A stretch of 43,655 bases of DNA from Melioribacter sp. (GTDB lineage: Bacteria > Bacteroidota > Ignavibacteria > Ignavibacteriales > Melioribacteraceae). Where the stretch lies: contig PMDS01000011.1 of the NCBI GenBank assembly GCA_003155655.1, positions 1 through 43,655 on the forward strand, read 5' to 3'. The notes under the pieces were generated by a model, which was given only the letters and a program-made list of their open reading frames with translations, ran no database searches and was not told the DNA's origin. Positions 27,326 to 43,655 of the stretch are shown one piece after another; positions within the stretch are counted from its first letter, which is position 1, and each line of letters starts with the position of its first letter. The translations under genes were made by a program, and so were the position numbers.

Positions 27326-28729
27326 ATGATAGAATTTATTCTAAATAATCAACATATAAATACAGACTTTTCTCCAACTACTGTCCTTCTCGATTTCATA
27401 AGGAAAGAAAAAAAACTAACTGGTACAAAAGAAGGCTGCCGCGAAGGCGATTGCGGGGCTTGCACTATTTTACTTGGAGAACTTGTTAATGGGAATGTTT
27501 TCTACAAATCAGTTAATTCATGTTTGGTACCCCTTGGTGATGCTCATGGAAAACACGTTGTTACTGTGGAAGGATTTAATCAAAATGAGTTATCTCCAAT
27601 TCAAGCTGGAATGATTGATGAAGGTGGAACTCAATGCGGATTCTGCACACCCGGATTTATTGTTTCTATGACAGGATATTTCTTGAATAATGAGACTCCC
27701 GAAATTGACGGTGCCATTGATGCGTTAGGAGGAAATATTTGCCGATGTACGGGTTATGTTGGAATAAAGCGCGCTGCTGAGCATTCAATCTCTGTTTATA
27801 AAAAGACGGATCCTAAGTTGAAATTTATGAACAGGTTGATAGAAGCCGGGTTTATCCCTGAATATTTTAATTCAATTAAAAAACAACTTGCCGCTATAGG
27901 AATTACTCGAAGAAAAGATTTTCAGGCGGAATATCTAATTGGCGGCGGTACGGATCTGTATGTACAGCAATGGGAAAGTTTAGTCCAATCTAAGGCTGAT
28001 TTTACATCTCTTGAAAAAACTCCATATGAGATTATTAAGTTAAAAGATAAAATAAAAATTGGCGGGGCAACAACTATTCAACAAGTTTTGAATTCGTCGA
28101 TTGTAAAAAAATATTATCCTTCTTTGCAGAATAATTTAGAACTATTTGGCTCGCTTCCAATCCGTAACCGTGCAACAGTCGCAGGAAATATTGTTAATGC
28201 GTCACCAATTGGTGATATGACTAATATTCTTCTTGCTCTCAACGCAGAACTTCAACTTAAGAGCAGCAAATCTAAAAGAACTGTTAAGCTTCGTGATTTT
28301 TATAAAGGCTACAAACTTTTGAATAAAAAAAAGAGTGAATCAATTGATTGGATTACAATTCCCATTCCATCTAAAAGATTCTTATTTAATTTTGAAAAAG
28401 TTTCCAAACGAACATACCTGGATATTGCAAGTGTAAACTCTTCAATCTTATTAGAAGAAAAGAATAATATAATTAAGAGCATTGGTTTATCTGCCGGAGG
28501 AGTTGCCCCAATTCCACTTTACCTAAGTAAGACCTGTGAGTTTCTCATCGGCAAAAAAATATCCGCGGCAACAGTAAATGACGCGGCTGAAATTGCAATA
28601 AAAGAAATTTCTCCTATAAGTGATGCCCGTGGATCTGCTGAATATAAAAAATTACTTTTACGCCAGCTAATTTATGCACACTTCATAGTTCTCTTTCCTC
28701 AGGTAATTAAAGCAGAGCAAATAGTATGA
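27326..28729 (+). CDS. xdhA: Xanthine dehydrogenase-type small subunit: two [2Fe-2S] clusters fused to FAD domain
   Basis: The 467-residue protein fuses the iron-sulphur and FAD parts of a molybdenum hydroxylase, as in Rhodobacter XdhA. C38, C43, C46 and C66 bind the plant-ferredoxin-type cluster; C104, C107, C139 and C141 (CGFC...CRC) bind the second. The FAD domain follows from about residue 180 with YLIGGGTDLYV and IRNRATVAGNIVNASPIGD. Electrons from the molybdenum site pass through these clusters to FAD. It overlaps the molybdopterin-subunit gene by 4 bp (ATGA). It is the first gene of the catabolic cluster; xanthine or another purine is the likely substrate by family, though related enzymes use other N-heterocycles. 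Confidence 0.85.
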   Translation: MIEFILNNQHINTDFSPTTVLLDFIRKEKKLTGTKEGCREGDCGACTILLGELVNGNVFYKSVNSCLVPLGDAHGKHVVTVEGFNQNELSPIQAGMIDEGGTQCGFCTPGFIVSMTGYFLNNETPEIDGAIDALGGNICRCTGYVGIKRAAEHSISVYKKTDPKLKFMNRLIEAGFIPEYFNSIKKQLAAIGITRRKDFQAEYLIGGGTDLYVQQWESLVQSKADFTSLEKTPYEIIKLKDKIKIGGATTIQQVLNSSIVKKYYPSLQNNLELFGSLPIRNRATVAGNIVNASPIGDMTNILLALNAELQLKSSKSKRTVKLRDFYKGYKLLNKKKSESIDWITIPIPSKRFLFNFEKVSKRTYLDIASVNSSILLEEKNNIIKSIGLSAGGVAPIPLYLSKTCEFLIGKKISAATVNDAAEIAIKEISPISDARGSAEYKKLLLRQLIYAHFIVLFPQVIKAEQIV

Positions 28730-30990
28730 GAAATTCAGATTCAGTTCATCACGTTAGAGGGGAATCACATTTTATTGAAGATATAAATGTTCCAGAAGGA
28801 ACTTTATTTGGTTATGTATTTTATTCTCCAATTGCTCACGGAAAAATTATAAAAATTGATTATTCTGATGCATTTAACTCCAAAGGAGTAAAAGGGATAA
28901 TCTCAGCCAAAGATATCCCCGGGGAAAATCAAATAGGTGGGGTAATTCCGGATGAGAATCTCTTTGCCGAGGACTCAGTTCATTTTATCGGTCACCCAAT
29001 AGCTCTTGTAGTTGCAGAAACTTATTTGCAGGCGCATGAAGCATCTAAAAAAATAAAAGCGTCATTCAAAAAGCTGCCTGCAATTTTAGACCCGCGTGAA
29101 GCGGCAGCTAAAGATGAATTGATTATTCCGCCAAGGACATTTGAACTTGGAAACATTAATGACTCCTGGAAAGAGTGTGATTTTATTATTGAGGGGAAAG
29201 TTGATAGCGGAGGGCAGGAACATATTTATTTAGAAACTCAGGGTGCTGTAGCTTTTCAAACTGAGGGCGGCGGTATAAAAGTTTTTTCTGCAACCCAGGC
29301 GCCAACAGCAGTTCAAAGAACAATAGCGCGCATTCTTGGTTTTCCTATGAACAAAGTTGAAGTTGATGTTCAACGCCTTGGCGGCGCATTTGGCGGAAAG
29401 GAAGATCAAGCAACTGCCTGGGCTTGTATGGCAGCTCTTGCAGCTCACAAGTTAGGTACACCAGTAAAGTTAATACTTAACAGGCAGGATGATATCCGTA
29501 TTACCGGTAAGCGTCATCCATACTCTTCTGATTATAAGATTGGACTTACAAAAGACGGTAAAATAATTGCATATCAAGCCACGTTTTATCAGAATGCAGG
29601 CGCATGTGCAGATTTATCTACAGCTATTTTAGACAGAACTCTTTTCCATTGTACAAATACATATTTCATTCCTAATGTTCATGCAACAGCATTAAGCTGC
29701 AGGACAAATATAGCACCAAATACAGCATTCCGAGGATTTGGCGGGCCGCAGGGAATGTTTGTAATTGAATCTGCAATTTATAAAGCAGCTCAGGTTATGG
29801 GTATTGAGCCGGTTGAAATTCAAAGAAAAAATTTATTAAAAGAAGGTGATGAATTTCCTTTTGGACAAAAAACATTAAAATGCAATGCTTCAAGATGTTT
29901 TGATGAATTGGAAGTGAATTATCCTTTTGCAAAAATCTTTCAAGAGATCAATGAGTTTAATTCAAAGAGTACTTTGATAAAGAAAGGCGCCGCAGTAATA
30001 CCAATTTGCTTTGGCATTTCTTTCACAACTTCAATTCTGAACCAGGCATCAGCGCTGATTCATATTTATACCGATGGCAGCATTAATATTAGTACTGCTG
30101 CTGTTGAAATGGGACAGGGCGTTAACGCAAAACTTAAACGCATAGCTGCCCGTACTTTTGGTGTTGCAGAGTCTAGAATAAAGGTTGAATCTACAAATAC
30201 TTCACGTGTCTCAAATACTTCTCCAACAGCAGCAAGCAAAGGAACGGACTTGAATGGATTTGCTGTAATTGATGCTTGCAATATATTATATGCACGTTTG
30301 CAAAAGGTTGCAGCCGAAGAACTTGGTGAAAGTGATTTTTCTACAATTTCTTTCAACCACGAAAAAGTATTTCGTAATAATGTTGTAACCGGGCTAACAT
30401 TTTCAAATTTAGTCAACAAAGCATATTCGAAGAAAGTAAGTTTAACTGCACAAGCTCATCATTCAACGCCGGACATTTATTTCAACACAAAAACAAACAA
30501 AGGCAATCCGTTTGCATATCATGTTTATGGTTCGGCAGTAGTTCAGGTTACACTCGACTGCCTGCGCGGAATTTATGAATTTGATTTTGTAAAAGCAGTT
30601 CATGATTTCGGAGAGATATTACATAAAACAATCGATTTAGGACAGGCAGAAGGCGGTATTGTTCAAGGTATCGGATGGATGACTTGCGAAGAACTTAAGT
30701 GGAACAGTGAAGGAAAACTTTTGACAGATGCACTTTCGACTTATAAGATCCCGGATATTCATGCTATTCCAAAAGTAATGAATATACATTTTCTTGAGAA
30801 CTCACCTAATGATTTTGGTCCCCTCCATTCAAAAGCAATAGGAGAACCGCCGTTTATGTATGGTCTAGGTGTATATTTTGCATTGATGAATGCAATGCGC
30901 GCTTTCCGCCCCGGCATGGAAATAAAATTTGATACCCCGTTAACACCCGAAAAAGTTTTATTAATGCTGTATAACTCAACTACAAATTAG
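28726..30990 (+). CDS. xdhB: Xanthine dehydrogenase-type molybdopterin-binding large subunit
   Basis: The 754-residue protein carries the molybdopterin and substrate domains. GGAFGGKE is at 219-226, AFRGFGGPQGM at 334-344 with Arg336 in the place of the substrate-binding Arg of xanthine dehydrogenase, and GEPPFMYG contains Glu707, the expected catalytic base. Gln191 in SATQ fits the molybdenum-ligand Gln. The FRGFGGPQ and GEPP forms favour true xanthine dehydrogenases over aldehyde oxidases or CO dehydrogenases. It is translationally coupled to the FeS-FAD subunit and followed 8 bp later by the PLP enzyme. Insertion of the molybdenum cofactor normally needs XdhC, which is not in the window. 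Confidence 0.86.
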   Translation: MRNSDSVHHVRGESHFIEDINVPEGTLFGYVFYSPIAHGKIIKIDYSDAFNSKGVKGIISAKDIPGENQIGGVIPDENLFAEDSVHFIGHPIALVVAETYLQAHEASKKIKASFKKLPAILDPREAAAKDELIIPPRTFELGNINDSWKECDFIIEGKVDSGGQEHIYLETQGAVAFQTEGGGIKVFSATQAPTAVQRTIARILGFPMNKVEVDVQRLGGAFGGKEDQATAWACMAALAAHKLGTPVKLILNRQDDIRITGKRHPYSSDYKIGLTKDGKIIAYQATFYQNAGACADLSTAILDRTLFHCTNTYFIPNVHATALSCRTNIAPNTAFRGFGGPQGMFVIESAIYKAAQVMGIEPVEIQRKNLLKEGDEFPFGQKTLKCNASRCFDELEVNYPFAKIFQEINEFNSKSTLIKKGAAVIPICFGISFTTSILNQASALIHIYTDGSINISTAAVEMGQGVNAKLKRIAARTFGVAESRIKVESTNTSRVSNTSPTAASKGTDLNGFAVIDACNILYARLQKVAAEELGESDFSTISFNHEKVFRNNVVTGLTFSNLVNKAYSKKVSLTAQAHHSTPDIYFNTKTNKGNPFAYHVYGSAVVQVTLDCLRGIYEFDFVKAVHDFGEILHKTIDLGQAEGGIVQGIGWMTCEELKWNSEGKLLTDALSTYKIPDIHAIPKVMNIHFLENSPNDFGPLHSKAIGEPPFMYGLGVYFALMNAMRAFRPGMEIKFDTPLTPEKVLLMLYNSTTN

Positions 30991-30998
30991 GAGAAAGG

Positions 30999-32462
30999 AT
31001 GAACAATTGGTCCTGGCAAATTGAGAACAAAGAATATTTAAAAAAGACAATAGAACGATGTAAGAAACAAAAAATTCTTCTGCCAAAATTCAGCGAAATG
31101 AAAAACCCTGAAACAATCCCGCAAAAAATACAAAACAAACTTCAAAATGTTGGAATGCAGGAAACAAACCCGTTCAACTTATTCAGAATAAATTGGAACA
31201 ATGACTCCAAAACCGGAAAGATCGGCGGTATAAATTTTTTAGAAATCCCTAAAGAAATTTCGGGTGTTAAAGCCCGGATAATAGGACTCATAGGAAAATT
31301 CTTCCCGACAGGCGCTCATAAAGTTGGCGCCTCGTATGGCTGCCTTGCACCTTATCTAGTAACAGGTAAATTCAATCCTGAGTATCATAAAGCAGTATGG
31401 CCTTCAACAGGAAATTATTGCAGGGGAGGGATTTTTAATTCACGCTTGCTCTCTGTTCATGGAGTAGCAATACTTCCTGAAGAAATGAGCAAGGAAAGAT
31501 TCGACTGGCTGAAAGAAATGGGTGCGGAAATTTATGCCACACCTGGTTGTGAAAGTAACGTAAAAGAAATTTATGATAAATGTCATGAGCTTGAACGCAA
31601 AAGTGATGAGTATATTATTTTTAACCAATTTGATCAGTTTGGAAATGCTATATGGCATTACACAGTTACGGGTCATACAATTGAGAAACTATTTAATCAG
31701 TTAAAAAAAGAAAATCAGAGGGTGAGCGGTTATGTAAGTGCAACCGGTTCTGCCGGGACAATTGGTGCAGGGGATTACCTGCGTGAACTTTATCCTCAAA
31801 TTAAAGTTGTTGCATCGGAAGCGCTGCAATGTCCTACTCTTTTAATGAACGGTTACGGCGGGCATAGAATTGAGGGTATTGGTGATAAACATGTTCCGTG
31901 GATTCATAATGTTAAAAATACGGATGCTGTTGCGGCAATTAATGATGAAGACCCGCTAAAAATCCTGCGATTGTTTAACGAGCCGGAAGGACAGAAATAC
32001 TTAAAACAGTTGGGTATAGATGATACTACTTTATCAAAACTTTCCTGGCTAGGAATCTCAGGCATAAGCAATATGTTGAGCGCAGTCAAATTGGCAAAGC
32101 ATTTCGAAATGAATGAGAACGATGTTATCTTCACAATTTTTACGGACTCGGTTGAACTATATAATTCACGGCTGGAAGAAATGAACCAAACATGGGGAAA
32201 ATACTCTCTCCATCAGGCTGAAATAGATTGGTACTCAATTATTCAAAGGCAGGGCATTGATTATTTTGCAGAACTTAATTACCAGGAGAAAAAACGAATT
32301 CACAATTTGAAATATTTTACCTGGGTTGAACAGCAGTGTAAAACTGTTGAAGAACTTAATGCACAGTGGTATGATGAAAATTATTGGAAGGTAAGATTTG
32401 AAATTGTTAAATACTGGGATGAGTTGATAGATGATTTTAATAAACAAGTCGCTTTAGATTAA
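30999..32462 (+). CDS. Fold-type II PLP-dependent enzyme of the long cysteine-synthase-like group
   Basis: The 487-residue protein has a fold-type II PLP layout. Lys108 in FFPTGAHKVGASYG is the probable Schiff-base lysine, STGNYCRG (136-143) is the substrate/carboxylate loop, and TGSAGTIGAG (249-258) is the phosphate-binding loop. It is about 80 residues longer than diaminopropionate ammonia-lyase (YgeX) and lacks that enzyme's typical sequence, so I do not call it ygeX. Reactions in this fold are beta-eliminations or beta-replacements. Because it sits between the xanthine dehydrogenase genes and ssnA with 8- and 37-bp gaps, it probably cleaves an amino-acid intermediate of the pathway. AGGAGAAAGG precedes the start. 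Confidence 0.8.
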   Translation: MNNWSWQIENKEYLKKTIERCKKQKILLPKFSEMKNPETIPQKIQNKLQNVGMQETNPFNLFRINWNNDSKTGKIGGINFLEIPKEISGVKARIIGLIGKFFPTGAHKVGASYGCLAPYLVTGKFNPEYHKAVWPSTGNYCRGGIFNSRLLSVHGVAILPEEMSKERFDWLKEMGAEIYATPGCESNVKEIYDKCHELERKSDEYIIFNQFDQFGNAIWHYTVTGHTIEKLFNQLKKENQRVSGYVSATGSAGTIGAGDYLRELYPQIKVVASEALQCPTLLMNGYGGHRIEGIGDKHVPWIHNVKNTDAVAAINDEDPLKILRLFNEPEGQKYLKQLGIDDTTLSKLSWLGISGISNMLSAVKLAKHFEMNENDVIFTIFTDSVELYNSRLEEMNQTWGKYSLHQAEIDWYSIIQRQGIDYFAELNYQEKKRIHNLKYFTWVEQQCKTVEELNAQWYDENYWKVRFEIVKYWDELIDDFNKQVALD

Positions 32463-32499: not shown

Positions 32500-33840
32500 A
32501 TGAAACTAAATAAATTAATAGTGGAAAACGCGTGGATCTGTCCTGTCATAGAGGGTGAGGTAATTCCTTTCTTTGGTGATATTATTATTGTTGAAGGAAT
32601 TATCTCAAAAATACGTCCCAAAAGTTTTCAAACATTTCAAAAGAATCCGGGAAAGGTCGGAAAAGATTCATTCAATGCATTTGGCAGGGTTGTTACTATT
32701 CCACTCGTAAATTTTCACGACCACATATATTCCCGGCTTGCAAAAGGGTTACCACTCAAAGGCAAATTTGATAATTTTCAGGATGTTCTGAAAAATCTCT
32801 GGTGGAAATTAGACCGTACCCTTGATATGGATATGATAGCTGCCTCAGCGCAAATGGCAGCGCTGGAATCAATCCGCAATGGGGTTACATATATTTTTGA
32901 TCATCATTCTTCTCAAAATGAAATTAGCGGCAGTCTAAATGTAATCAAAAATGTTTTAAACAAATTTGGATTGCGCGGTGTACTCTGTTTTGAAAGTACA
33001 GACAGAAATGGAACGGAAAAAGCATTATCCGGATTGAATGAAAACAAAAATTTTTTTACTGCCCAGCTAAACGGAGACTTCCACGGCATGCTCGGGCTTC
33101 ATGCTTCATTTACACTTTCTGATGATCTTCTTTCAGAAGCGCACAAACTTCAAAAACAATTTGATCTGGGAATTCACATACACATAGCGGAAGATGAAAG
33201 CGATAACAAATTAAGCAGTGAGTATACCGGTGCATTACCAGTAAACCGCTTAAAAAAATTCAAACTGATGAATGATAAAAGCATTTTAGTACATGGCGTT
33301 CATCTGAAAGAAAAAGATTACATAAAGATCAGCGAAGCTGAAAGCGCAATTGCGTTCTGTCCTGATTCCAATATGAATAATTCAGTCGGACTGCCACAAT
33401 TTGCTAAAATTCCCGAAAGTATTCCTTTATTAGCCGGCACCGATGGAATGCATGCAAACCTTGCAAGATCTCTCAAACAGCTATTTCTAATTTTTAGGTA
33501 CCAGGGGATAAGCGGTGACAAATCTACTGCTCTAATAAAAAAGATTTATTTAGATCAAATTGGGTTTGTGAAAAAATACTTTAATGATTATCCAACACTT
33601 GCTGAAAATGACCGGGCTGATTTGATAGTTTGGGATTACGTTCTCCCTACGCCGCTGAATAGCGAAAACTTTTGGGGACATTTGATTTATGGTATTTTTG
33701 AATACCCGGTACATAGTGTTTTACAAAATGGCAATTTCTTAATGAAAGATTTCCACCTAGTAGATGTTGATGCTGATAAAATAACGAATGATGTTTTTAA
33801 GCAGGGTGAAAGATTGTTTAATAAAATGAAAGCATCATAG
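32500..33840 (+). CDS. ssnA: SsnA-like amidohydrolase
   Basis: SsnA proteins are metal-dependent aminohydrolases (guanine deaminase/ATZ-TRZ type) encoded near molybdenum hydroxylases. The metal ligands are visible: H73 and H75 (NFHDHIYSR), H226 and H228 (GIHIHIAED), H265 and H268 (HGVHL), and D315 in AGTDGMH. The N-terminal composite beta domain (NKLIVENAWICPV) and the C-terminal DLIVWDYVLPTPL are also family-like. The length of 446 residues matches E. coli SsnA (442). It lies inside the cluster between the PLP enzyme and the second molybdenum hydroxylase. A hydrolytic step on a purine-derived ring or amidine is likely, substrate unproven. Confidence 0.85.
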   Translation: MKLNKLIVENAWICPVIEGEVIPFFGDIIIVEGIISKIRPKSFQTFQKNPGKVGKDSFNAFGRVVTIPLVNFHDHIYSRLAKGLPLKGKFDNFQDVLKNLWWKLDRTLDMDMIAASAQMAALESIRNGVTYIFDHHSSQNEISGSLNVIKNVLNKFGLRGVLCFESTDRNGTEKALSGLNENKNFFTAQLNGDFHGMLGLHASFTLSDDLLSEAHKLQKQFDLGIHIHIAEDESDNKLSSEYTGALPVNRLKKFKLMNDKSILVHGVHLKEKDYIKISEAESAIAFCPDSNMNNSVGLPQFAKIPESIPLLAGTDGMHANLARSLKQLFLIFRYQGISGDKSTALIKKIYLDQIGFVKKYFNDYPTLAENDRADLIVWDYVLPTPLNSENFWGHLIYGIFEYPVHSVLQNGNFLMKDFHLVDVDADKITNDVFKQGERLFNKMKAS

Positions 33841-33851
33841 CAGGGAAATGA

Positions 33852-36230
33852 ATGGCTAAAAAGTTTTCTGTTGTCGGTAAGCCTGTAATACGTGAAGACG
33901 GAATTGATAAAGTAACGGGCAAAGCTAAATTTGCAGACGATTATAAATTTAATGGAATGCTTCATGCTGTAATGCTTCGTATCCCATGCGCCCATGCTAA
34001 GATCAACTCAATAGACTTTTCAGAAATCCAAAATGATGAATCTGTATTCTCGATAATTACTAACAAAGATATTCCCGGAACAAAAAAAGTCGGCGTTATA
34101 AAAAACGATCAGCCGGTTTTCTGTAATGAAAAAGTAGTAACACCCGGTGATGTGCTTGGGATGATTGTAGGTCAATCAGAAGAAAAATTGCGTTCGCTAG
34201 TTAATAAAATAAAAGTTGATTATTCAACATTGCCTCTATTAACTGATCCTCAAAAATCTCTTGAGCCGGATGCTATTTTAATTCATCCTGAAACCAAGAG
34301 CAATCTTATTATTCATCATCCGCTTAGAAAGGGAAATGTAGAAAAAGGATTCACAGAAAGCGATCATATTTTAGAGCAGACATACACTACTCAGTTGATA
34401 GAACATGCTTATATAGAACCGGAAGCAGTATCAGCAATTCCATTGGGAGCAGGTGGTATAAAAATTATTGGAAGCATTCAAAATCCATTCACTACAAGAC
34501 GAATAGTAGCTGCAGTAGTAAATCTTCCATTGGATAAAGTGCAAATTATTCAGGCGCATTTAGGCGGGTCATTCGGCGGAAAGGATGATACAATGTGCAT
34601 TCTAGCGGCAAGAGCGGCTGTAGCAGCGCTCAAAACAGACCACCCTGTAAAGATCCGTTACACACGTGAAGAATCGATTCTAGAGTCTTACAAGCGTCAT
34701 CCATACATCCTGAATTATAAGGTTGGGTTTGCCAAGACAGGCAAAATAAAAGCAATGAGGATTGATATACTTGCTGATGGTGGCGCATATTGCTCAATGA
34801 GTCCTTTTGTAACCTGGCGTTCAGTTGTTCAGGCAACAGGACCTTATGAAATAAAAAATGTTCATACAGATGTACGTGCTGTTTACACAAATAATCCATA
34901 CACTGGAGCTATGCGGGGATTTGGTTCGCCCCAGCCAATCTTTGCGAATGAATCTTTGATGGATGAAATCGCCTTGCGTCTTGGTATGACACCTGATGAA
35001 GTTAGAAAAATAAACGGATTGAAAGAAGGTTCAATAACGGCAACAGGGCAGAGACTAAAAAATCATGACGTGAATTTATTGAATGTACTCAGTACTGCAA
35101 TGAAGAATACTGATTTTAAGAAGAAATGGATAAACAATAAAAAGAAAGAATCTCAACTTGGCGAACTTGATTTAAGTCAACCGGTTTTAAAAGATTCTCA
35201 ATACATGAATCCGGATCAATTGATAAAAAAGGGTATAGGTCTTGCAATTAGTTATCGCGGGTGTTCATTAGGCGCTGAGGGGATTGATGCAGCAGCAGCT
35301 TATCTCTCAATTCAAAATGACGGAAGCGCGTATCTCCTTTCCGGTCTGGCTGAAAATGGGCAGGGACTTAGAACTACATTTTCAATAGTTGCTGCAGAAG
35401 TCTTAGGAATTTCTCATGAACAAATTTTTTATCTGGAAACAGATACTTCCAGGGTTCCCGATAGTGGTCCTACAGTTGCTTCGCGGGCAACATTGATGGG
35501 AGGAGGCGCTGTTAAAAACGCTGCTGAAATTATACTTGACCGCCTAATAAGTTTAATCCGTAAAGAATGGAAATTGAAGAAGAAAGATGAAATTGAATTT
35601 AAAGAGAATAAAATTTTTGTAAATAAAAATAAGATCTCAACGTTTCCTGATCTATGTAAATTAGCTGCAAACCGGGGTGTTAATCTTGCAACAATTGGAT
35701 GGTATAAGAGTCCTACTGTTGATTGGAATGAACACACAGGTCAGGGTGATGCTTACTTCACGTACGTTTACGGATGCCATGTAGCAGAAGTTCAGGTTAA
35801 CTTGGGAACCGGAGAAGTTTATCTTGACAGAATTACTGCGGTTCATGACCCCGGTACAGTAATTAATAAACTTGGTGCAGAAGGTCAGGTTTATGGCGGC
35901 GTAACTCAAGGAGCCGGGTATGGAATAATTGAGGAAGTAACGACAGATAGAGGAGTTATCCGCGAGCAGAATTTTGATCAATATTTAATTCTTACTTCTA
36001 AGGATATTGGGGAAATAAAACCAATCTTTATCCAGGGAAAAGAAATATTCGGGCCATGGGGCGCGAAGTCGCTTGGTGAGCCTACGCTGGAATTGACTGC
36101 TGCAGCAATTTCAAATGCCGTATGCAATGCCGTTGGGAAAAGATTTTTCAATCTGCCTTTGAATCTTGAGGAGATTGTTCTTGGCAAAAAACTTCGTCCG
36201 GAAGAAATTAAGCGGGGAAGTTTGCAATGA
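33852..36230 (+). CDS. Second molybdenum hydroxylase, molybdopterin-binding subunit (XdhD/SdhM-like)
   Basis: The 792-residue protein has the two molybdopterin domains: GGSFGGKDD near 238-246, AMRGFGSPQPIFANE near 353-367, ENGQGLRTTFS, and GAKSLGEPTLELTAAA with the catalytic Glu near residue 745. The MRGFGSPQ and GEPTLE forms set it apart from the first large subunit (FRGFGGPQ, GEPPF) and resemble XdhD and the molybdenum subunit of the putative selenate reductase group. The FAD and FeS subunits follow as separate genes. Gene order L-M-S with an ATGA overlap to the FAD gene shows one enzyme. Its substrate may be a different purine from that of the first enzyme. Confidence 0.83.
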   Translation: MAKKFSVVGKPVIREDGIDKVTGKAKFADDYKFNGMLHAVMLRIPCAHAKINSIDFSEIQNDESVFSIITNKDIPGTKKVGVIKNDQPVFCNEKVVTPGDVLGMIVGQSEEKLRSLVNKIKVDYSTLPLLTDPQKSLEPDAILIHPETKSNLIIHHPLRKGNVEKGFTESDHILEQTYTTQLIEHAYIEPEAVSAIPLGAGGIKIIGSIQNPFTTRRIVAAVVNLPLDKVQIIQAHLGGSFGGKDDTMCILAARAAVAALKTDHPVKIRYTREESILESYKRHPYILNYKVGFAKTGKIKAMRIDILADGGAYCSMSPFVTWRSVVQATGPYEIKNVHTDVRAVYTNNPYTGAMRGFGSPQPIFANESLMDEIALRLGMTPDEVRKINGLKEGSITATGQRLKNHDVNLLNVLSTAMKNTDFKKKWINNKKKESQLGELDLSQPVLKDSQYMNPDQLIKKGIGLAISYRGCSLGAEGIDAAAAYLSIQNDGSAYLLSGLAENGQGLRTTFSIVAAEVLGISHEQIFYLETDTSRVPDSGPTVASRATLMGGGAVKNAAEIILDRLISLIRKEWKLKKKDEIEFKENKIFVNKNKISTFPDLCKLAANRGVNLATIGWYKSPTVDWNEHTGQGDAYFTYVYGCHVAEVQVNLGTGEVYLDRITAVHDPGTVINKLGAEGQVYGGVTQGAGYGIIEEVTTDRGVIREQNFDQYLILTSKDIGEIKPIFIQGKEIFGPWGAKSLGEPTLELTAAAISNAVCNAVGKRFFNLPLNLEEIVLGKKLRPEEIKRGSLQ

Positions 36231-37099
36231 AGACTTCAATTGAAATATTGACTCCCAAAACATTAACTGAAATTTTAGGAATACTTTCTGAAAGACAGGA
36301 AATCTTAACCTTAATTGCAGGCGGAACTGATGTTATTACAGGACTTAAACAGGAATCCAAAAGATTCAAAGACACGGAAGTTCTTGTAGATGTAAACCAC
36401 GTTCCTGAGTTAAAAGAAATTAAACACATGCCTGAAAAAATAACGATTGGGGCTGCCGCAACATTTTCTGAGATTTATAATAATTCAATAGTCAGCAATG
36501 AATTACCAATTCTTAAAAAAGCTGTGAGTACTATTGGCAGCATGCAAATAAGGAACCGGGCAACAATTGCTGGCAATTTTGTTAATAACGCTCCCTGTGC
36601 TGATACTGTGCCTGCTTTGCTTGTATACAACGCTACAATCGAAATTGAATCAATGAATTCAAAGCGGGAAACATATCTCCAGGAATTTTTACAGGGTCCA
36701 TACAAGACACAGCTTAAAAAGGATGAAGTTGTTACAAAAATAAATATCCCTGTTCCGACTAAAAGTTTTACCGGTGATTTTTACAAACTTGGCAGACGCC
36801 GGGCAGTAGCAATAAGCAGGATTACGCTTGCAGTATTGATGGAGCTGAAAGAAAATAAAATTAATAAAATAAGAATTGCTTCCGGTTCCGTAACACCGAT
36901 AGGAACCCGTTTTCCTGAGCTTGAAATATTTGCAATGGAGAATGATGTGAATGACAATCTTTTTAAAACTCTTGCTAGTAGAATGGGAGAAGAAATAATT
37001 AAAATAACAGGATTACGCTGGTCGAGCGCATATAAATTACCTGTAGTGCAACAAATGTTTTATCAACTGTTAAAAGGAATAGAACGCAGATCTTTATGA
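36227..37099 (+). CDS. Second molybdenum hydroxylase, FAD-binding subunit (YgfM-like)
   Basis: The 290-residue protein is the FAD-binding medium subunit. It has LIAGGTDVITGLKQ (about 28-41) and IRNRATIAGNFVNNAPCADTVPALL (shown by its core RNRATIAGNF, near 107-116), the two FAD pyrophosphate loops, then the CO dehydrogenase flavoprotein C-terminal domain (GDFYKLGRRRAVAISRI). It overlaps the molybdopterin gene by 4 bp. In E. coli ygfM has this place beside ssnA and xdhD. The FeS subunit starts 65 bp downstream. Confidence 0.87.
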   Translation: MKTSIEILTPKTLTEILGILSERQEILTLIAGGTDVITGLKQESKRFKDTEVLVDVNHVPELKEIKHMPEKITIGAAATFSEIYNNSIVSNELPILKKAVSTIGSMQIRNRATIAGNFVNNAPCADTVPALLVYNATIEIESMNSKRETYLQEFLQGPYKTQLKKDEVVTKINIPVPTKSFTGDFYKLGRRRAVAISRITLAVLMELKENKINKIRIASGSVTPIGTRFPELEIFAMENDVNDNLFKTLASRMGEEIIKITGLRWSSAYKLPVVQQMFYQLLKGIERRSL

Positions 37100-37164: not shown

Positions 37165-37659
37165 ATGAAAGTGAATTTTACTTTAAATGGAAAAAAAGTT
37201 CAAGCTGAGACTGCCCAAAGCATTCGTCTGCTCGATTTGTTAAGGGATGAATTCAATTTAACAGGCACAAAAGAAGGCTGCGGCATCGGAGAATGCGGCG
37301 CTTGTACTGTTTTATTGAATGGATACGCGGTTAACTCATGTCTGGTTCTTGCCGCCCAAATAGACGGAAGCGAAATTTTAACAATTGAAGGTGTCGCAGG
37401 TGAAAAAGAACTACATCCGTTACAAAAGAATTTTTTAAAATTTGGTGCAGTCCAATGCGGATTTTGCACACCCGGAATGATACTATCGGCATATTCATTA
37501 TTAGGTCAAAAACAAGATCCAACAGAAGAAGAAATTAAAGATGCAATTGCAGGAAATTTGTGCCGTTGTACCGGCTACAAGCAGATTATTGAAGCTGTGA
37601 AAGAGACAGCAAAAGAAATGCATGCTGGTTCTTATACGTCTGTAAATGATAAGAGATAA
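37165..37659 (+). CDS. Second molybdenum hydroxylase, [2Fe-2S] subunit
   Basis: The 164-residue small subunit holds two clusters: C39, C44, C47 and C59 ([16 protein letters not shown]) and C98, C101, C133 and C135 (CGFC...CRC). It completes the three-subunit enzyme with the two preceding genes. There is no clear ribosome site before the ATG at 37165. Its last 28 bp overlap the 3' end of the convergent YgfK gene (37632-37659). Confidence 0.9.
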
Positions 37660-40600
37660 AAATAATTCTTGAGAAGATTTTTTATTAGCTGTGTTAATGA
37701 TTCAATTTCTTTCTGATCGAAATAAGAAGATTTAATTACTTCGTGCATATTATCAAAAGTGATAGTTCCTCTTTCAGATTTCCACCGAATATTTGCAATT
37801 ATTTGATTCTCCTCTCTTATTAGAAAGAATCCATTGTTTCTGCTCAGTCTAAAATCATGTTCATTGTCAAATAAGGTAGGCTTTTCTTTATAAGGGGCTC
37901 CCTGGTAAGGACAGAATGTTTCGCAATTGCCGCACTCATTGCACATTGAATCTATATGTAATATTTGGAATTTATCCTTAAAAAATTTGGAATCCTCTAT
38001 AACAGCAATATTAGCACGGTTGGGGCAAACTTCTTCACATTTATTGCATATAAAGTTGCATCCAAGACACCGGTTTGCTTCCGAAATTATGTCCTGAGGA
38101 CTCTGATATACAATATTTCCTTTTCTATTATCGATATCTTCAAAAAGAAGAGGGTCATCTACAAAATATTTTTTCGCGGGTATGCTTAAATATTCAAGAT
38201 GTTCTTTTTTAATTATTGCTTCTGCAGTCTTCTTTCCATCAGCAATAGATTCAATAACGGTGGATGGTCCGCGAAGTGCATCCCCGCCAATGAATACATT
38301 TGGAATCTCTGTTTCATTCCATTCATTTACAACTGCCCGGTTATGTGCCATGCGGATTTTATTCATGTGCAATGATTCTTTATTAACATGTTCACCAATT
38401 GCAGATATAACAGAATCGACAGTTATGTTAATAAATTCTCCTTCAATAGGCTCAACCTCTTTTCTACCGTCTTTACCAATTTGTCCAAGTTTCATCTTTT
38501 GACATGTAAGTATACCTTCCTGAAATTTTACCGGAAGCAGCAACTCTTTAAATTCAACTCCTTCATCAAGAGCGGCAAAAAATTCTTCTTTATCTGCGAG
38601 CATTTCTTCAATTGTACGCCTGTAAATCAAGTAAGTTTTCTCAACGCCATCATATCTTAATGCAGCACGTGCGCTATCCATAGCAGAATTTCCGCCTCCA
38701 ATTACAGCAACAGTTTTTCCAAGATCAAATAATTGCGCATTATGATAATCTTTTAAAAGCGCTATTGCTTCTAAAACACTGTCACCTTCTAAATGACTTT
38801 TGTTCGATAAACCCGCACCCATTGCTATGAAAATGTATTTGAATCCTTCCTTCTTTAGTTTCTCAACAGAAAAAACCGGATCGAAGCCAAAAACAAATTT
38901 AATTCCATGCTTCTCAATAAATTGAATATCTTTTTCTATTGCTTCTTTTGGAAGCCTAAATTTTGGTAAAATGTTTTGAACAATGCCACCGGCATTCATT
39001 TCTTTTTCAAAAATGGTAACATCAAAACCTGCTTTGGCCAGAAAATATCCTGCCGATAAACCTGAGGGACCTGCGCCAATAATTGCTGTTTTAATATGAT
39101 TCTGATTTTTTAAAAACTCATTATTAAATTTTTCCAGGTAAGAAGAATACCCGTTTTCAGCAGCAATCTTCTTTAGCGCACGAATCAAAACCGGTTCATC
39201 ATAATCCCAACGTGTACAGTGATTCATGCATTGATGGTCGCAAATATAACCTGTAATATGAGGCAGGGGGTTTTTTTGAATAATTAACTCGTATGCCTCT
39301 TCATACTTTTTTTGCTCAACTAATTTTATATAAGAGGCAACATCCTGATGGATGGGACACGCTTGCTGGCATGGTGCAATGTAACAATCAAATGCTGGAA
39401 GGCTCAGTTGAATTTTTATTGATTTTATTTCACGCTTTTCTTTCGAGTAAGCTTTATTCGTTAAAGAATCCTCCGCCAATTTTTTTAGGAGAGTTAAATT
39501 TATTTTGCCAATTTCCGTTTTTGAAGCGCCCATTGCTGAATTTGCAATTTGCGCTAAGCGTGTATAACCGCCCGGTTTCAATAAATCAGTGGCGAATGTT
39601 ACCGGTTTAATTCCGGTCTCTAAAATGTCTTTAATATTATTATTGCTTGCACCGCCGGAATATGAAATATTTAATTTACCATTGAACTCTTCAGATAATT
39701 TATATGCAAGATTGATTGTAAGAGGGAATAATGATCTGCCTGACATATACATATCATTACCCGGCAGGGTCTTTAAAAAGTTTTTTACACCAAGAGTATT
39801 GGAAAGCTTAACGCCAAATTGAAGTTGCTTCTTTTGAGCAGTCTCGGTCAATCTCTTTAACATCGGTAAAGCATCGCTGTATTTCAAATCATTGTCAAAT
39901 GAATGAGAATCTAAATTGATGTATTTATATCCAAGCTTATGTAATGTATCGCTTACAAAATCATAGCCTAAAAGTGTCGGATTTAATTTTACATAAGTAT
40001 TGAGGTTTTTTTCCTCAATTAGATAGGATGCAATTGCTTCAATTTCATTTGGCGGGCAGCCATGCATAGTTGACAGAGTAACAGAATTCGAGATAAATGG
40101 TGTAATTCTTATCATAGCATTGACTATTTCACCCATCCGGTTTTCGGAAATGTTGAATTCTTTAGATAAAAATTCCCGGGTTGAATTTGAAACTAAGTAA
40201 TTAACAATGTATGATTTATAATTAGCGAATTGTTCATTATTAGAGGCGTCCTTCAATTCTTCAATAAACTTATTCATTCTGTCGGTCTTAATACCTTCAA
40301 GATCATAGCCAACGCTCATGTTAAAAACAAAACCTCTTTCAGATTGCGAAAGAATAAAAAGATCTTTTACCAGGTGTATTAGAATCCATGCCTTGATATA
40401 TTCCCCATAGGATTTATCAAGAGAAAGCTCCTGTGACCATTCAACATTGTATCCTTCGTCTGATGCATCAATACATGGTTTATCTATTTTCAGATCATCT
40501 AGTTTCTGTACAGTTTTGAGTTCGAAGAATCGACCCCCGGTTAAATATGAGCTAATAATGTTCTGCGCTAATTGGGTATGAGGTCCGGCTGCAGGTCCTA

Positions 40601-40763
40601 CTAAGGTATCAAGGGATTCATTAAAAATTGATTCATTTCTTTCTTGTTTGCATTGGTAGAATTTATGTGATAGGATTCCAAAAATAGTTTTTTGCTGTGC
40701 ATATTCTTTAAGAATCCAGTCAGCTAATTTCTCAATCGGTATAGGAAACATCTTGTCAGACAT
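37632..40763 (-). CDS. ygfK: YgfK-like flavin/iron-sulphur oxidoreductase
   Basis: The 1043-residue protein has the YgfK composition. Residues 1 to about 420 form a dihydroorotate-dehydrogenase-like FMN barrel domain ([37 protein letters not shown]). A glutamate-synthase-type Fe-S domain follows ([17 protein letters not shown] near 452, then [11 protein letters not shown]). An FAD/NADPH module has [10 protein letters not shown] near 557 and [10 protein letters not shown] near 688. Two C-terminal ferredoxin-type motifs are [16 protein letters not shown] (near 896) and [12 protein letters not shown] (near 939). It could carry electrons between NAD(P)H and the molybdenum hydroxylases; the old name putative selenate reductase is unproven. 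It is transcribed against its neighbours. Confidence 0.87.
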
Positions 40764-40948: not shown

Positions 40949-42163
40949 ATGGAAAATTCAATTATAGAAAAATTATTTAATGCAGTAGAAGCAGAGAGGG
41001 AAAATTTATTCTCTCTTATCCAAAGACTGATCCAAATAAAGAGTTACAGCGGTGAAGAACAGGAAATTGTTGAATTTATTGTTTCAAAAATGAAAGAGTA
41101 CGGCTTTGATGAAGCTTATCACGACGGATTTGGAAATGCAATAGGACGCATTGGCAATGGACCAATAAAAATAATGTATGATGCACATGTAGATACTGTT
41201 AAAGTTACAGAGACAGAAAACTGGGTGCATCCACCTTTTGGCGGTGAAATCGAAAACGGTAAGATGTACGGACGCGGAGTTGTTGATGAAAAACCGGCTA
41301 TGGCTGGTTTTATGATCTCTGGAAAGATTTTAAAACAAATTTATGGAGATAATTTTCCTTTCACGCTTTATGCTGTCGGCTCTGTATTAGAAGAAGATGC
41401 AGATGGCTACCCGCTTTATCATATTATACAAGATGAGGGAATTAGACCGGATTATGTTGTGCTCGGTGAACCAACTAATCTTAAGGTTAATCGTGGCCAG
41501 AGAGGCAGAATGGAATTGAAAATTACTGTTACCGGTAAATCTGCCCATGGTGCGCATAACCAGAAAGGAATAAATGCCATATATAAAATGCAGCCAATAA
41601 TTGCTGATATTGAAAAATTAGACAAAAAGTTAAAACCCAAACAGCCTCTTGGTAAAGGATCAATAACTGTAAGCCAGGTTATTTCCAAAGCCCCATCAAC
41701 CTGCTCTGTATCAGATTACTGCCAGATCCATCTTGACAGGAGAATGACAATCGGTGAGAATAAAAATACTGTAGTTAAGGAATTGAAGGAAATCATAAAG
41801 AAACATAAGAGTGACGCCAAAGTTTCAATTCCGAATGTTGAAGGCACAAGCTGGAAGGGAACAAAGTTTTCGATGGAAGCTTATTTTCCAACCTGGGTTT
41901 ATGACGAGAAACATCCTCTTGTTGATGCTGCAATGAAAACTTCCAAAGCGGCAATGGGAAAAGCAAAGAGCGGGGTATGGAGTTTTTCTACAAATGGCGT
42001 TGCTACTGCAGGGCTCTTTGGAATACCGACAATTGGGTTTGCGCCCAGTGATGAGAGCTTGTCTCATTCATCAAAAGAAGTGCTGGTGCTAAATGACTTG
42101 CTGAAAGCGACAAAATTTTATGCTTTGTTTCCGTTTGAACTGATGGAAAGAATAGAACGCTGA
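40949..42163 (+). CDS. ygeY: YgeY-like M20 family metallohydrolase
   Basis: The 404-residue protein is an M20 amidohydrolase/peptidase. The dinuclear zinc site is visible: H80 and D82 in DAHVDTV, D113 in GRGVVDEKPAMAG, the general base and ligand pair E148-E149, E174 in LGEPTN, and a C-terminal His in SLSHSSKE. The lid domain contains GKSAHGAHN. YgeY families are linked to the ygf/ssnA cluster and are thought to cleave an amide or carbamoyl bond in a purine-derived intermediate. ygeW follows 104 bp downstream, and ygfK diverges upstream. Confidence 0.86.
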   Translation: MENSIIEKLFNAVEAERENLFSLIQRLIQIKSYSGEEQEIVEFIVSKMKEYGFDEAYHDGFGNAIGRIGNGPIKIMYDAHVDTVKVTETENWVHPPFGGEIENGKMYGRGVVDEKPAMAGFMISGKILKQIYGDNFPFTLYAVGSVLEEDADGYPLYHIIQDEGIRPDYVVLGEPTNLKVNRGQRGRMELKITVTGKSAHGAHNQKGINAIYKMQPIIADIEKLDKKLKPKQPLGKGSITVSQVISKAPSTCSVSDYCQIHLDRRMTIGENKNTVVKELKEIIKKHKSDAKVSIPNVEGTSWKGTKFSMEAYFPTWVYDEKHPLVDAAMKTSKAAMGKAKSGVWSFSTNGVATAGLFGIPTIGFAPSDESLSHSSKEVLVLNDLLKATKFYALFPFELMERIER

Positions 42164-42267
42164 TCATTGAAAGAATTGTAAAAAAACGAAAAATTTTAAC
42201 TAAAGAACATAAAAAATCATAATAATCATAAAAATCTGTGTTCAATTTTTTTGAACCAGGAGGAATA

Positions 42268-43278
42268 ATGGAAAAGGGATTCAAAGGAAGACATTTTATT
42301 ACAGAAGATAATTGGGCAAAAGGAGAACTGGATATAGTTTTTGATACAGCATTTGAACTAAAGAAGAAATTTTATGCCGAAGAACCCACACTCTGGCTGC
42401 CATATAAAACGTTGTTCATGATGTTCTTCGAGCAGTCAACACGTACACGTAATTCCATGGAAGCCGGAATGACACAGCTTGGCGGACATGCACATGATTT
42501 AACCCCGGACAAGATGCAAATCACTCATGGAGAGGTTGCAAAGGATACAGCAATAATTCTTAGCCGCATGGGACATGGGATAGCATGCCGTAATTGTTTT
42601 TATGGAATAGGGAATAAATATTTAAATGAGCTTGCTGAATATTCACGCAAGCCGGTTATGTCTTTGCAGGATGATGTGTACCATCCATTCCAGGGGCTCG
42701 CAGATTTGATGACGATCTTTGAGCACCTTGGAAGAAATACAAAAAATTTAAAGGTAGCTATTAGTTGGGCATATGCGACAACACATTCAAAACCGCTAAG
42801 CGTACCGCAGACACAGATACTCCTTTTCCCGCGTTATGGAATTGATGTAACCGTTGCCCATCCTAAAGAATTTCCTCTAAGTAAGAACATTGTAGAAAAA
42901 GCCCGGAAGAATGCAAAAGAAGGCGGCGGAAGTCTCCGCTTAACAAATGATATGGATGAAGCCTTTGAAGGCGCTCAGATTGTTATTCCTAAAAATTGGG
43001 GCGGCTTTGGTTATTATGATGAGGAATATTATCTGGCCCATGAAGATGAATGTAAAAAGGAAATGAAAAATAATCTTGATAGTTACAAGAGCTGGATTTG
43101 CAATGATAAGAGAATTAAACTAGCAGATAAAAATGTAAAACTAATGCATGCATTACCGGCAGACCGTGGAAATGAAGTTACAGATGAAATACTTGATAAC
43201 CCGGACATATCAATTGTATTTGATGAAGCAGAAAACAGGCTGCATACGGCAAAAGCTATTATGGGATTAACAATGTAG
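42268..43278 (+). CDS. ygeW: YgeW-like knotted carbamoyltransferase
   Basis: The 336-residue protein is a trans-carbamoylase homologue. The carbamoyl-phosphate motif STRTR is in FEQSTRTR (54-61), HPFQG is the second conserved loop, SWAYATTHSKPLSVPQ matches the YgeW-specific SWAYSPSYGKPLSVPQ type, and HALPAD replaces the usual HCLP. It is shorter than E. coli YgeW (396), mainly at the N-terminus. The ATG at 42268 follows AGGAGG closely; an in-frame GTG at 42238 has no ribosome site. YgeW is thought to make carbamoyl phosphate from a ureido intermediate, which carbamate kinase turns into ATP; no carbamate kinase gene is in the window. Confidence 0.86.
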   Translation: MEKGFKGRHFITEDNWAKGELDIVFDTAFELKKKFYAEEPTLWLPYKTLFMMFFEQSTRTRNSMEAGMTQLGGHAHDLTPDKMQITHGEVAKDTAIILSRMGHGIACRNCFYGIGNKYLNELAEYSRKPVMSLQDDVYHPFQGLADLMTIFEHLGRNTKNLKVAISWAYATTHSKPLSVPQTQILLFPRYGIDVTVAHPKEFPLSKNIVEKARKNAKEGGGSLRLTNDMDEAFEGAQIVIPKNWGGFGYYDEEYYLAHEDECKKEMKNNLDSYKSWICNDKRIKLADKNVKLMHALPADRGNEVTDEILDNPDISIVFDEAENRLHTAKAIMGLTM

Positions 43279-43287
43279 TTTTTTTTT

Positions 43288-43430
43288 AACTCTGAGGAAT
43301 GAAACGACGAAGAATCCCTATCTTTGAATGTACAGAGTATTTGTTGAAATCATGATCTTTTTATAAGTGATAATTTTTGAGAAATAACACACGTGGAGAT
43401 TCTTCGTCCCATTGCACGGGACTCAGAATT
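43288..43430. repeat. Dispersed inverted-repeat (MITE/REP-like) element
   Basis: GACGAAGAATC (43306-43316) and GATTCTTCGTC (43398-43408) are perfect inverted copies, and the flanking TCTGAG (43291-43296) and CTCAGA (43422-43427) pair as well. The core resembles a family of short palindromic elements that end in CTCAGAATGACA-like sequences in many bacterial genomes. It separates ygeW from the next gene and has no coding capacity. Confidence 0.6.
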
Positions 43431-43446
43431 AAAGAAGAGAGATTTT

Positions 43447-43655
43447 ATGAAAAAATATTTATACAAATGTTTTGATTGCGGTAAAACGTACGACAAAGAT
43501 GAAATTGAGAGCTGCTTAATTTATCTATGTCCATCCTGTGGTAAAGTTGAAAAGAACATGCCGCTTAAAGGAATTCTGCTGGTTCATTATGATTACGATT
43601 CTATAAAAATTAAATACCGTAAAGAAGATTTATTCAAATTACAGCCGGGGAAGTT
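43447..43655 (+). CDS. Threonine-synthase-like protein, N-terminus only
   Basis: An ATG at 43447, after AAGAAGAGAG, opens a frame that runs off the window; 69 residues are visible. They form a zinc-ribbon-like start, C8-x2-C11 and C28-x2-C31 (with an extra C23), then PLKGILLVHYDYDSIKIKY, typical of threonine synthases of the zinc-ribbon type. Threonine synthase converts O-phosphohomoserine to threonine with PLP. The catalytic part is outside the window, so another fold-type II PLP enzyme is possible, including one that serves the catabolic cluster. Confidence 0.6.
   Translation, partial: MKKYLYKCFDCGKTYDKDEIESCLIYLCPSCGKVEKNMPLKGILLVHYDYDSIKIKYRKEDLFKLQPGK

Follow-up and report, generated by a model that had tools for sequence, protein, structure and literature searches.

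A conserved PLP enzyme family distinct from YgeX in gene clusters of the reductive urate pathway type

A reductive pathway of urate breakdown in gut bacteria, Escherichia coli among them, was published in 2025 (PMC12990295; PMC12507026). As these sources describe it, urate is converted in turn to yanthine, dihydro-yanthine, ureidomethyl-hydantoin, diureidopropionate and diaminopropionate, and finally to pyruvate. In PMC12507026, E. coli gets to pyruvate via YgeX; in the network published there, PF00291 is the only mark of YgeX, and a gene of that family next to SsnA is taken to be YgeX. A commentary asks if the gut pathway arose recently as an adaptation or was invented earlier and then adopted by gut bacteria (PMC12990295).

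The locus discussed here contains the reductive urate gene set, namely a molybdenum hydroxylase, YgfK, SsnA, YgeY and a YgeW-like carbamoyltransferase, together with a PLP enzyme of another kind (Table 1). The window, by which we mean the whole stretch of DNA analysed, covers positions 1-43,655 of its contig, which continues to 55,002 bases. We label as PLP487 the 487-residue protein encoded within it that the original prediction had described as a fold-type II PLP enzyme with an active-site Lys108. That description holds, since the reading frame is intact, Lys108 lies within FPTGAHKVGAS, and the predicted phosphate loop is present and reads SATGSAGTIGAG. The gene also sits where it had been placed, with the large-subunit gene of a conventional xanthine dehydrogenase 8 bp upstream and ssnA 37 bp downstream. 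Farther along, the ends of ygfK and the 2Fe-2S subunit gene overlap tail to tail by 28 bases. The YgeW-like product is short (346 residues), unlike E. coli-type YgeW, and the ornithine carbamoyltransferase (OTC) model TIGR00658 outscores the YgeW model TIGR03316 on it (225 versus 182 bits). An E. coli-type YgeW (68% identity) was found with PLP487 in a Bacteroidales locus (L048), and three loci (L063, L076 and L210) have two differing YgeW-like carbamoyltransferase genes that adjoin or nearly do so, with a carbamate kinase-like gene close by.

Table 1. Coordinates of the gene cluster in the window and residue features of PLP487
Feature	Position	Strand	Remarks
Xanthine dehydrogenase small subunit (2Fe-2S + FAD)	27326..28729	+	TIGR02963-like, 356 bits, cut-off 467
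Xanthine dehydrogenase large (molybdopterin) subunit	28726..30990	+	TIGR02965-like, 786 bits, cut-off 849.5
PLP487, fold-type II PLP enzyme, 487 aa	30999..32462	+	ATG start, no internal stop
SsnA aminohydrolase	32500..33840	+	PRK07203 best family, 357 bits, under cut-off 444
Second molybdenum hydroxylase large subunit, candidate urate-to-yanthine reductase (putative XdhD/XdhA role)	33852..36230	+	
FAD subunit, second molybdenum hydroxylase (putative YgfM/XdhB role)	36227..37099	+	
2Fe-2S subunit, second molybdenum hydroxylase	37165..37659	+	
YgfK, candidate yanthine reductase	37632..40763	-	TIGR03315 1351 bits, cut-off 835
YgeY hydrolase	40949..42163	+	NF009555 450 bits, cut-off 321
YgeW-like carbamoyltransferase, short form	42238..43278	+	TIGR03316 182 bits, cut-off 500
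ThrS-like gene, N-terminal part	43393..43655	+	cut by window end and N pair
PLP487 residue features	Lys108; STGN loop 136-139; Gln210; phosphate loop 249-254; Asp296; Ser354		

The window ends inside the gene of a second PLP family, here called ThrS-like. Its open frame runs from a GTG over 43393-43653, an ATG at 43447 fits the relatives better, and two N stand directly past the window end at contig positions 43656-43657. The remainder of the gene, at about 43697-44617 of the contig (C79), precedes a gene labelled MocA-like because it clusters with matches to E. coli MocA. In locus L090 this same ThrS-like gene occupies 1194-1456 and 1498-2418. At E <= 1e-3 the N-terminal stretch in the window, in which two CxxC pairs are visible, matches 39 of the 43 ThrS-like relatives. 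The best family for ThrS-like is threonine synthase, at 210 bits against a cut-off of 303, and the same genome holds a separate ThrC-like gene (L008), named from its sequence.

PLP487 belongs to PF00291 (PALP profile, 55.5 bits against a cut-off of 35), and no NCBIfam model covers it above its cut-off. The best NCBIfam matches are CysK/CysKM at 101 bits, with cut-offs of 351 (TIGR01139) and 344 (TIGR01136). At E <= 0.001 the window's protein matched neither the YgeX models (NF006058, TIGR03528) nor the TrpB and threonine synthase models, and its relatives reach the threonine synthase model only weakly (11-19 bits). The PLP487 of locus L045 scores 14 bits against the NF006058 cut-off of 276, and the true YgeX that adjoins it scores 425. 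At least 80 relatives were found, at 55-85% identity, and the 81 aligned sequences have a mean column identity of 69%. Their records name Ignavibacteria, Bacteroidales, Calditrichota, Cloacimonadota, Aminicenantes, Elusimicrobia, Clostridia, Anaerolineales and others, with groundwater, bog, lake and mine among the samples. In a tree of 35 selected proteins built by maximum likelihood, with YgeX_L196 and YgeX_L197 included and ThrC and YgeX_L194 left out, PLP487, ThrS-like and YgeX form three distinct clades. PLP487 branches with the CysK/CBS/CysM sequences from its own genome (support 99/96) and away from TrpB, and ThrS-like and YgeX fall on the opposite side; some branches of this tree are long. 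The predicted structure (pLDDT 92.2) matches cysteine synthase-type chains over residues ~37-412, with Z scores of 32.0-35.9 among the 50 entries listed. The remaining ~75 residues (~413-487) extend beyond the region aligned to the listed solved structures; His435, Tyr439 and Trp442 are invariant there, and a conserved stretch of this extension reads HNLKYFTWVEQQ. Membership of diaminopropionate ammonia-lyase (DAPAL), CysK, TrpB or ThrC was not borne out by family models, by solved-structure search or by trees, ThrC having been part of a preceding tree. The proposal that PLP487 comes from a subfamily other than YgeX stands. The orthology to a named biosynthetic enzyme that would have spoken against the original prediction was not seen, the protein lying far under the cut-offs of those models. 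On sequence grounds, PLP487 forms a family of its own next to CysK/CBS, and a strongly conserved one.

The family is closely tied to the other genes of the urate pathway. Among 392 genomes of the window's phylum with a completeness of at least 90%, 35 carry PLP487. SsnA occurs in 34 genomes, every one among those 35, and the lone PLP487 genome without it (G322) has a mere PLP487 fragment at a contig end. YgfK over its curated cut-off occurs in 19 of the 392, every one with PLP487 (in G082 split across two contigs); this is the count used, as a threshold of E <= 1e-60 catches 174 genomes, mostly via the later part of the protein. ThrS-like was likewise found in 34 genomes, all of them with PLP487, G156 being the exception that lacks it. 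Hydantoinase homologs (E <= 1e-30) are present in all 35, many of which may be dihydropyrimidinases. HyuA itself is absent from the window, and homologs lie on contigs C45 and C58 of the same genome; a missing hydantoinase was considered and rejected on that basis. Several genomes and loci (G140, G152, G255, G093; L165, L166, L167) have YgfK as an N-terminal part only (~420-690 residues), and in L165-L167 a separate neighbour of 410-417 residues beside the partial YgfK could reflect a split or a different yanthine reductase. The flanks of 80 PLP487 loci were searched for YgfK, SsnA, YgeY, YgeW, HyuA and molybdenum hydroxylase at a threshold of 150 bits. At least one marker was present in 58 loci, at least two in 47, and none in 22, some of which are on short contigs; 15 of the genomes behind these 22 were searched, and 13 of them have ThrS-like. 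No PLP487 was found in the yge region of E. coli, which reaches pyruvate with YgeX; PLP487 is thus dispensable for the pathway there. Taken together, PLP487 is very probably an enzyme of the urate pathway and, by family, not a YgeX-type lyase.

The absence of YgeX that the original prediction reported was borne out in the window and, within the search made, in the whole genome: no match to NF006058 at E <= 1e-20 was found among its contigs (a 137-contig assembly given as 100% complete), nine PF00291 genes are present, and no ygeX, which would have told against the prediction, turned up elsewhere. In a second set, 35 of the 80 PLP487-locus genomes were searched; they carry PLP487 by choice and are mostly from other phyla by name, with L045, L062, L064, L081 and L087 possibly from the window's own. 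ThrS-like occurs in 29 of them, and YgeX over its cut-off in four, all within the six that lack ThrS-like (Fisher p 2.9e-4, with shared ancestry ignored). Three of these four (L057, L058 and L071) are Aminicenantes by title and may represent one event. In the L045 operon, ygfK, PLP487 and ygeX follow one another with 7-bp gaps, and in two further PLP487 genomes (L215 and L216) ygeX directly follows ygfK. Two PLP487 genomes, G408 and G410, for which no completeness is given, have neither ThrS-like nor YgeX. From the distribution of those four YgeX genomes, ThrS-like seems to alternate with YgeX inside urate clusters, and PLP487, which accompanies either, seems to be a third, separate enzyme.

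This alternation does not extend to whole genomes in the window's phylum, where 7 of the 35 PLP487 genomes hold both YgeX and ThrS-like. The eight YgeX copies of those seven genomes (L219-L226) had no urate genes in the fetched flanks of 0.4-9 kb per side. A protein of 560-579 residues adjoins the YgeX-family gene in L219, L220, L221, L225 and L226. In a draw of 218 phylum genomes, YgeX occurred in five, four of them PLP487 genomes, so YgeX is not independent of PLP487 and a distant link is possible. Urate-type genes were present in 13 of 20 stretches around ThrS-like or YgeX; none were seen in L199, L200, L202, L205, L206 and L209, and L213 showed a weak YgeW only. The ORF maps behind such absences use the longest frame and missed ThrS-like (L200, L205), YgeX (L215, L216, where its position comes from the genome search) and PLP487 (L066), which makes the absences soft. 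For the window's genome, ThrS-like is most likely the stand-in for YgeX and would cleave diaminopropionate to pyruvate and ammonia.

The residues of PLP487 provide a view of its possible chemistry. In the alignment to solved cysteine synthases, Lys108 falls on a Lys that we take to be their Schiff-base residue, and we likewise assume from the cysteine synthase family the roles of the S/T-S/T-G-N loop, the Gln, the glycine-rich phosphate loop and the Ser at the ring nitrogen. Along with the cysteine synthase fold (Z 32-36), this catalytic core is conserved: every one of the 81 sequences has Lys108, Ser136-Thr137-Gly138-Asn139, Gln210, Gly250 and Ser354. The GIGAGF loop of aligned cysteine synthases is GIGDKHVP in PLP487, and Asp296, Lys297, His298, Trp301 and His303 are invariant. 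Profile alignment to Fn1055, the cysteine hydroxyl-lyase of Fusobacterium nucleatum, and to its D232N entry 5b55 places Asp232 of Fn1055 at Asp296, which is the same in all 81 sequences, and counterparts of Thr73/Ser74 and Gln147 are present as well. According to a review (PMC12940168), Fn1055 carries out a beta-replacement that converts cysteine to serine and H2S, and the residues that matter most are Asp232, Ser74, Thr73 and Gln147.

By analogy, PLP487 may catalyse a water-dependent beta-replacement. Lys108 would form the Schiff base, and the STGN loop with Gln210 would bind the alpha-carboxylate. Departure of the beta-substituent would leave an aminoacrylate, to whose beta-carbon Asp296, in the place of Asp232 of Fn1055, would bring water. 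The natural beta-substituted alanine in a urate cluster would be diaminopropionate or albizziin, and the net reaction would be 2,3-diaminopropionate (or albizziin) plus water to L-serine and ammonia (or urea). The earlier proposal had left room for a different end product, and that option is now mildly favoured on sequence evidence, because the invariant Asp is common to a serine-forming enzyme. Asp296 could alternatively bind a cationic beta-amino group or leaving group. PLP487 would thus act as a dedicated enzyme at the three-carbon end of the yanthine pathway, beside and not instead of a diaminopropionate lyase. The full reading, in which PLP487 makes L-serine from 2,3-diaminopropionate and water in this pathway, is one we put forward tentatively and hold somewhat short of probable. 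Still more doubtful, although possible, is the two-enzyme PLP ending in which PLP487 forms L-serine in this way and ThrS-like or YgeX converts diaminopropionate or serine to pyruvate, jointly with the idea that the clusters represent another version of reductive urate breakdown, so far unrecognised, across many environmental phyla. SerC, an enzyme of serine synthesis, was found in 26 of 35 PLP487 genomes, including the window's own, and was missing by model in nine; a need for extra serine is therefore not evident, and lost serine synthesis as a motive for a serine-forming enzyme is unsupported.

The best surviving alternative is the original one, in which PLP487 is a non-orthologous diaminopropionate ammonia-lyase that replaces YgeX and ThrS-like has another job. 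Beta-elimination is common among PF00291 enzymes, PLP487 lies inside a cluster in a genome where no ygeX was found, and YgeX over its cut-off is absent from 28 of 35 PLP487 genomes in the phylum and 31 of 35 in the locus set. Nevertheless, PLP487 and YgeX stand in a single operon in L045, and YgeX follows YgfK in L215 and L216, which indicates that genomes with a pathway YgeX retain PLP487; it is ThrS-like that is missing from these three genomes. The active-site comparison also counts against a lyase. Asp120 of E. coli YgeX, which has a role in that enzyme, is present in each of the 12 YgeX copies examined for it. A tblastn alignment pairs PLP487 residues 136-181 with YgeX from 119 onward, and although weak (29 bits, E 0.008) it sets Thr137, invariant in 81 sequences, at position 120. 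We consider this replacement unlikely. What remains of the original interpretation is an enzyme of another subfamily in the same pathway; what does not fit is the replacement of YgeX, with which PLP487 coexists.

A second alternative, which we regard as quite unlikely, casts PLP487 as an epimerase that interconverts D- and L-diaminopropionate and supplies an L-specific ThrS-like lyase. Racemases exist within fold type II, and ThrS-like has STGN where YgeX has Asp120. PLP487 and ThrS-like adjoin in 19 of the 41 loci that hold both, some of these loci coming from related or the same organisms; L056 and L173 are examples with both genes intact and adjacent. PMC12507026 calls the hydantoinase of the E. 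coli pathway D-specific, and a D substrate might in that case need conversion before a lyase with STGN in place of Asp120 could use it. Yet PLP487 also accompanies YgeX copies with Asp120 and Asp189, which might accept both isomers, as E. coli YgeX does in PMC12507026, and the listed fold and sequence relatives of PLP487 are mostly beta-replacing enzymes.

A third alternative is an albizziin lyase that removes urea from 2-amino-3-ureidopropionate and partly bypasses YgeY. One version of the pathway passes through albizziin (PMC12990295; PMC12507026), and O-ureido-L-serine synthase is among the structural matches listed, at Z 34.0. That synthase is, however, one of many listed matches with about equal Z, and YgeY is present in the window and, with a threshold of 150 bits, in 21 of the 80 loci, so the ureido group already has a hydrolase in the same clusters. 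This function is improbable. Given that Fn1055 is a cysteine enzyme that releases sulfide, PLP487 might instead supply sulfide or selenide from cysteine or selenocysteine for maturation of the cluster's molybdenum hydroxylases, and in L040 and L042 it lies between mocA-like and yqeB-like genes. Such a supply role is very improbable: the known sulfuration is a fold-type I, NifS-like persulfide transfer, and among the named genes that adjoin PLP487 on the same strand, SsnA, HyuA, ThrS-like or YgfK are commoner than MocA. Older literature (PMC2276186) links this gene set to selenium-dependent molybdenum hydroxylases, and the gene table in it, which covers E. coli, E. faecalis and C. difficile, has no such enzyme. 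Finally, an ordinary cysteine synthase or cystathionine beta-synthase in the cluster by chance is scarcely credible even with CysK/CysKM as the best models, since the score is so far under their cut-offs, three further genes of that group are in the same genome, and PLP487 coincides with SsnA in 34 phylum genomes with one PLP487 fragment outside.

No description of the PLP487 or ThrS-like families was found in the titles and abstract beginnings of the literature searched. These two uncharacterised PLP families mark an environmental version of a urate pathway described from the gut, and this version bears on whether that pathway is of recent or older origin (PMC12990295). If the two-enzyme PLP ending is true, purine carbon would reach amino acid metabolism in the form of serine as well as pyruvate. 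There is also a consequence for annotation, as counting PF00291 genes near ssnA as YgeX would lump three different enzymes.

Fn1055 (5b53, 5b55, 5z5c) has the cysteine synthase fold in common with PLP487, and its Thr-Ser loop, Gln and Asp232 correspond to Ser136-Thr137, Gln210 and Asp296, but the identity is only 21-22%, the lengths are 340 and 487 residues, and the genetic context is another. CysK/CBS share the tree branch and the fold. Where PLP487 has Asp296, the aligned cysteine synthases have Ala and yeast CBS has Tyr, and the STGNYCRGG of PLP487 compares with a TSGNTG-type loop in CysK/CBS. Unlike CysK/CBS, PLP487 has the added C-terminal residues and is found with SsnA in the phylum sample. 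YgeX and PLP487 are both PF00291 proteins in the same pathway neighbourhood, yet they form separate clades and occur together in the L045 operon. The pathway of E. coli and C. difficile, as given by Li et al. 2025 (PMC12507026), and the window both have the molybdenum hydroxylase, YgfK, SsnA, YgeY and a YgeW-like protein. The window differs in its short YgeW, in a HyuA homolog located outside it, and in having PLP487 plus ThrS-like in place of YgeX alone.
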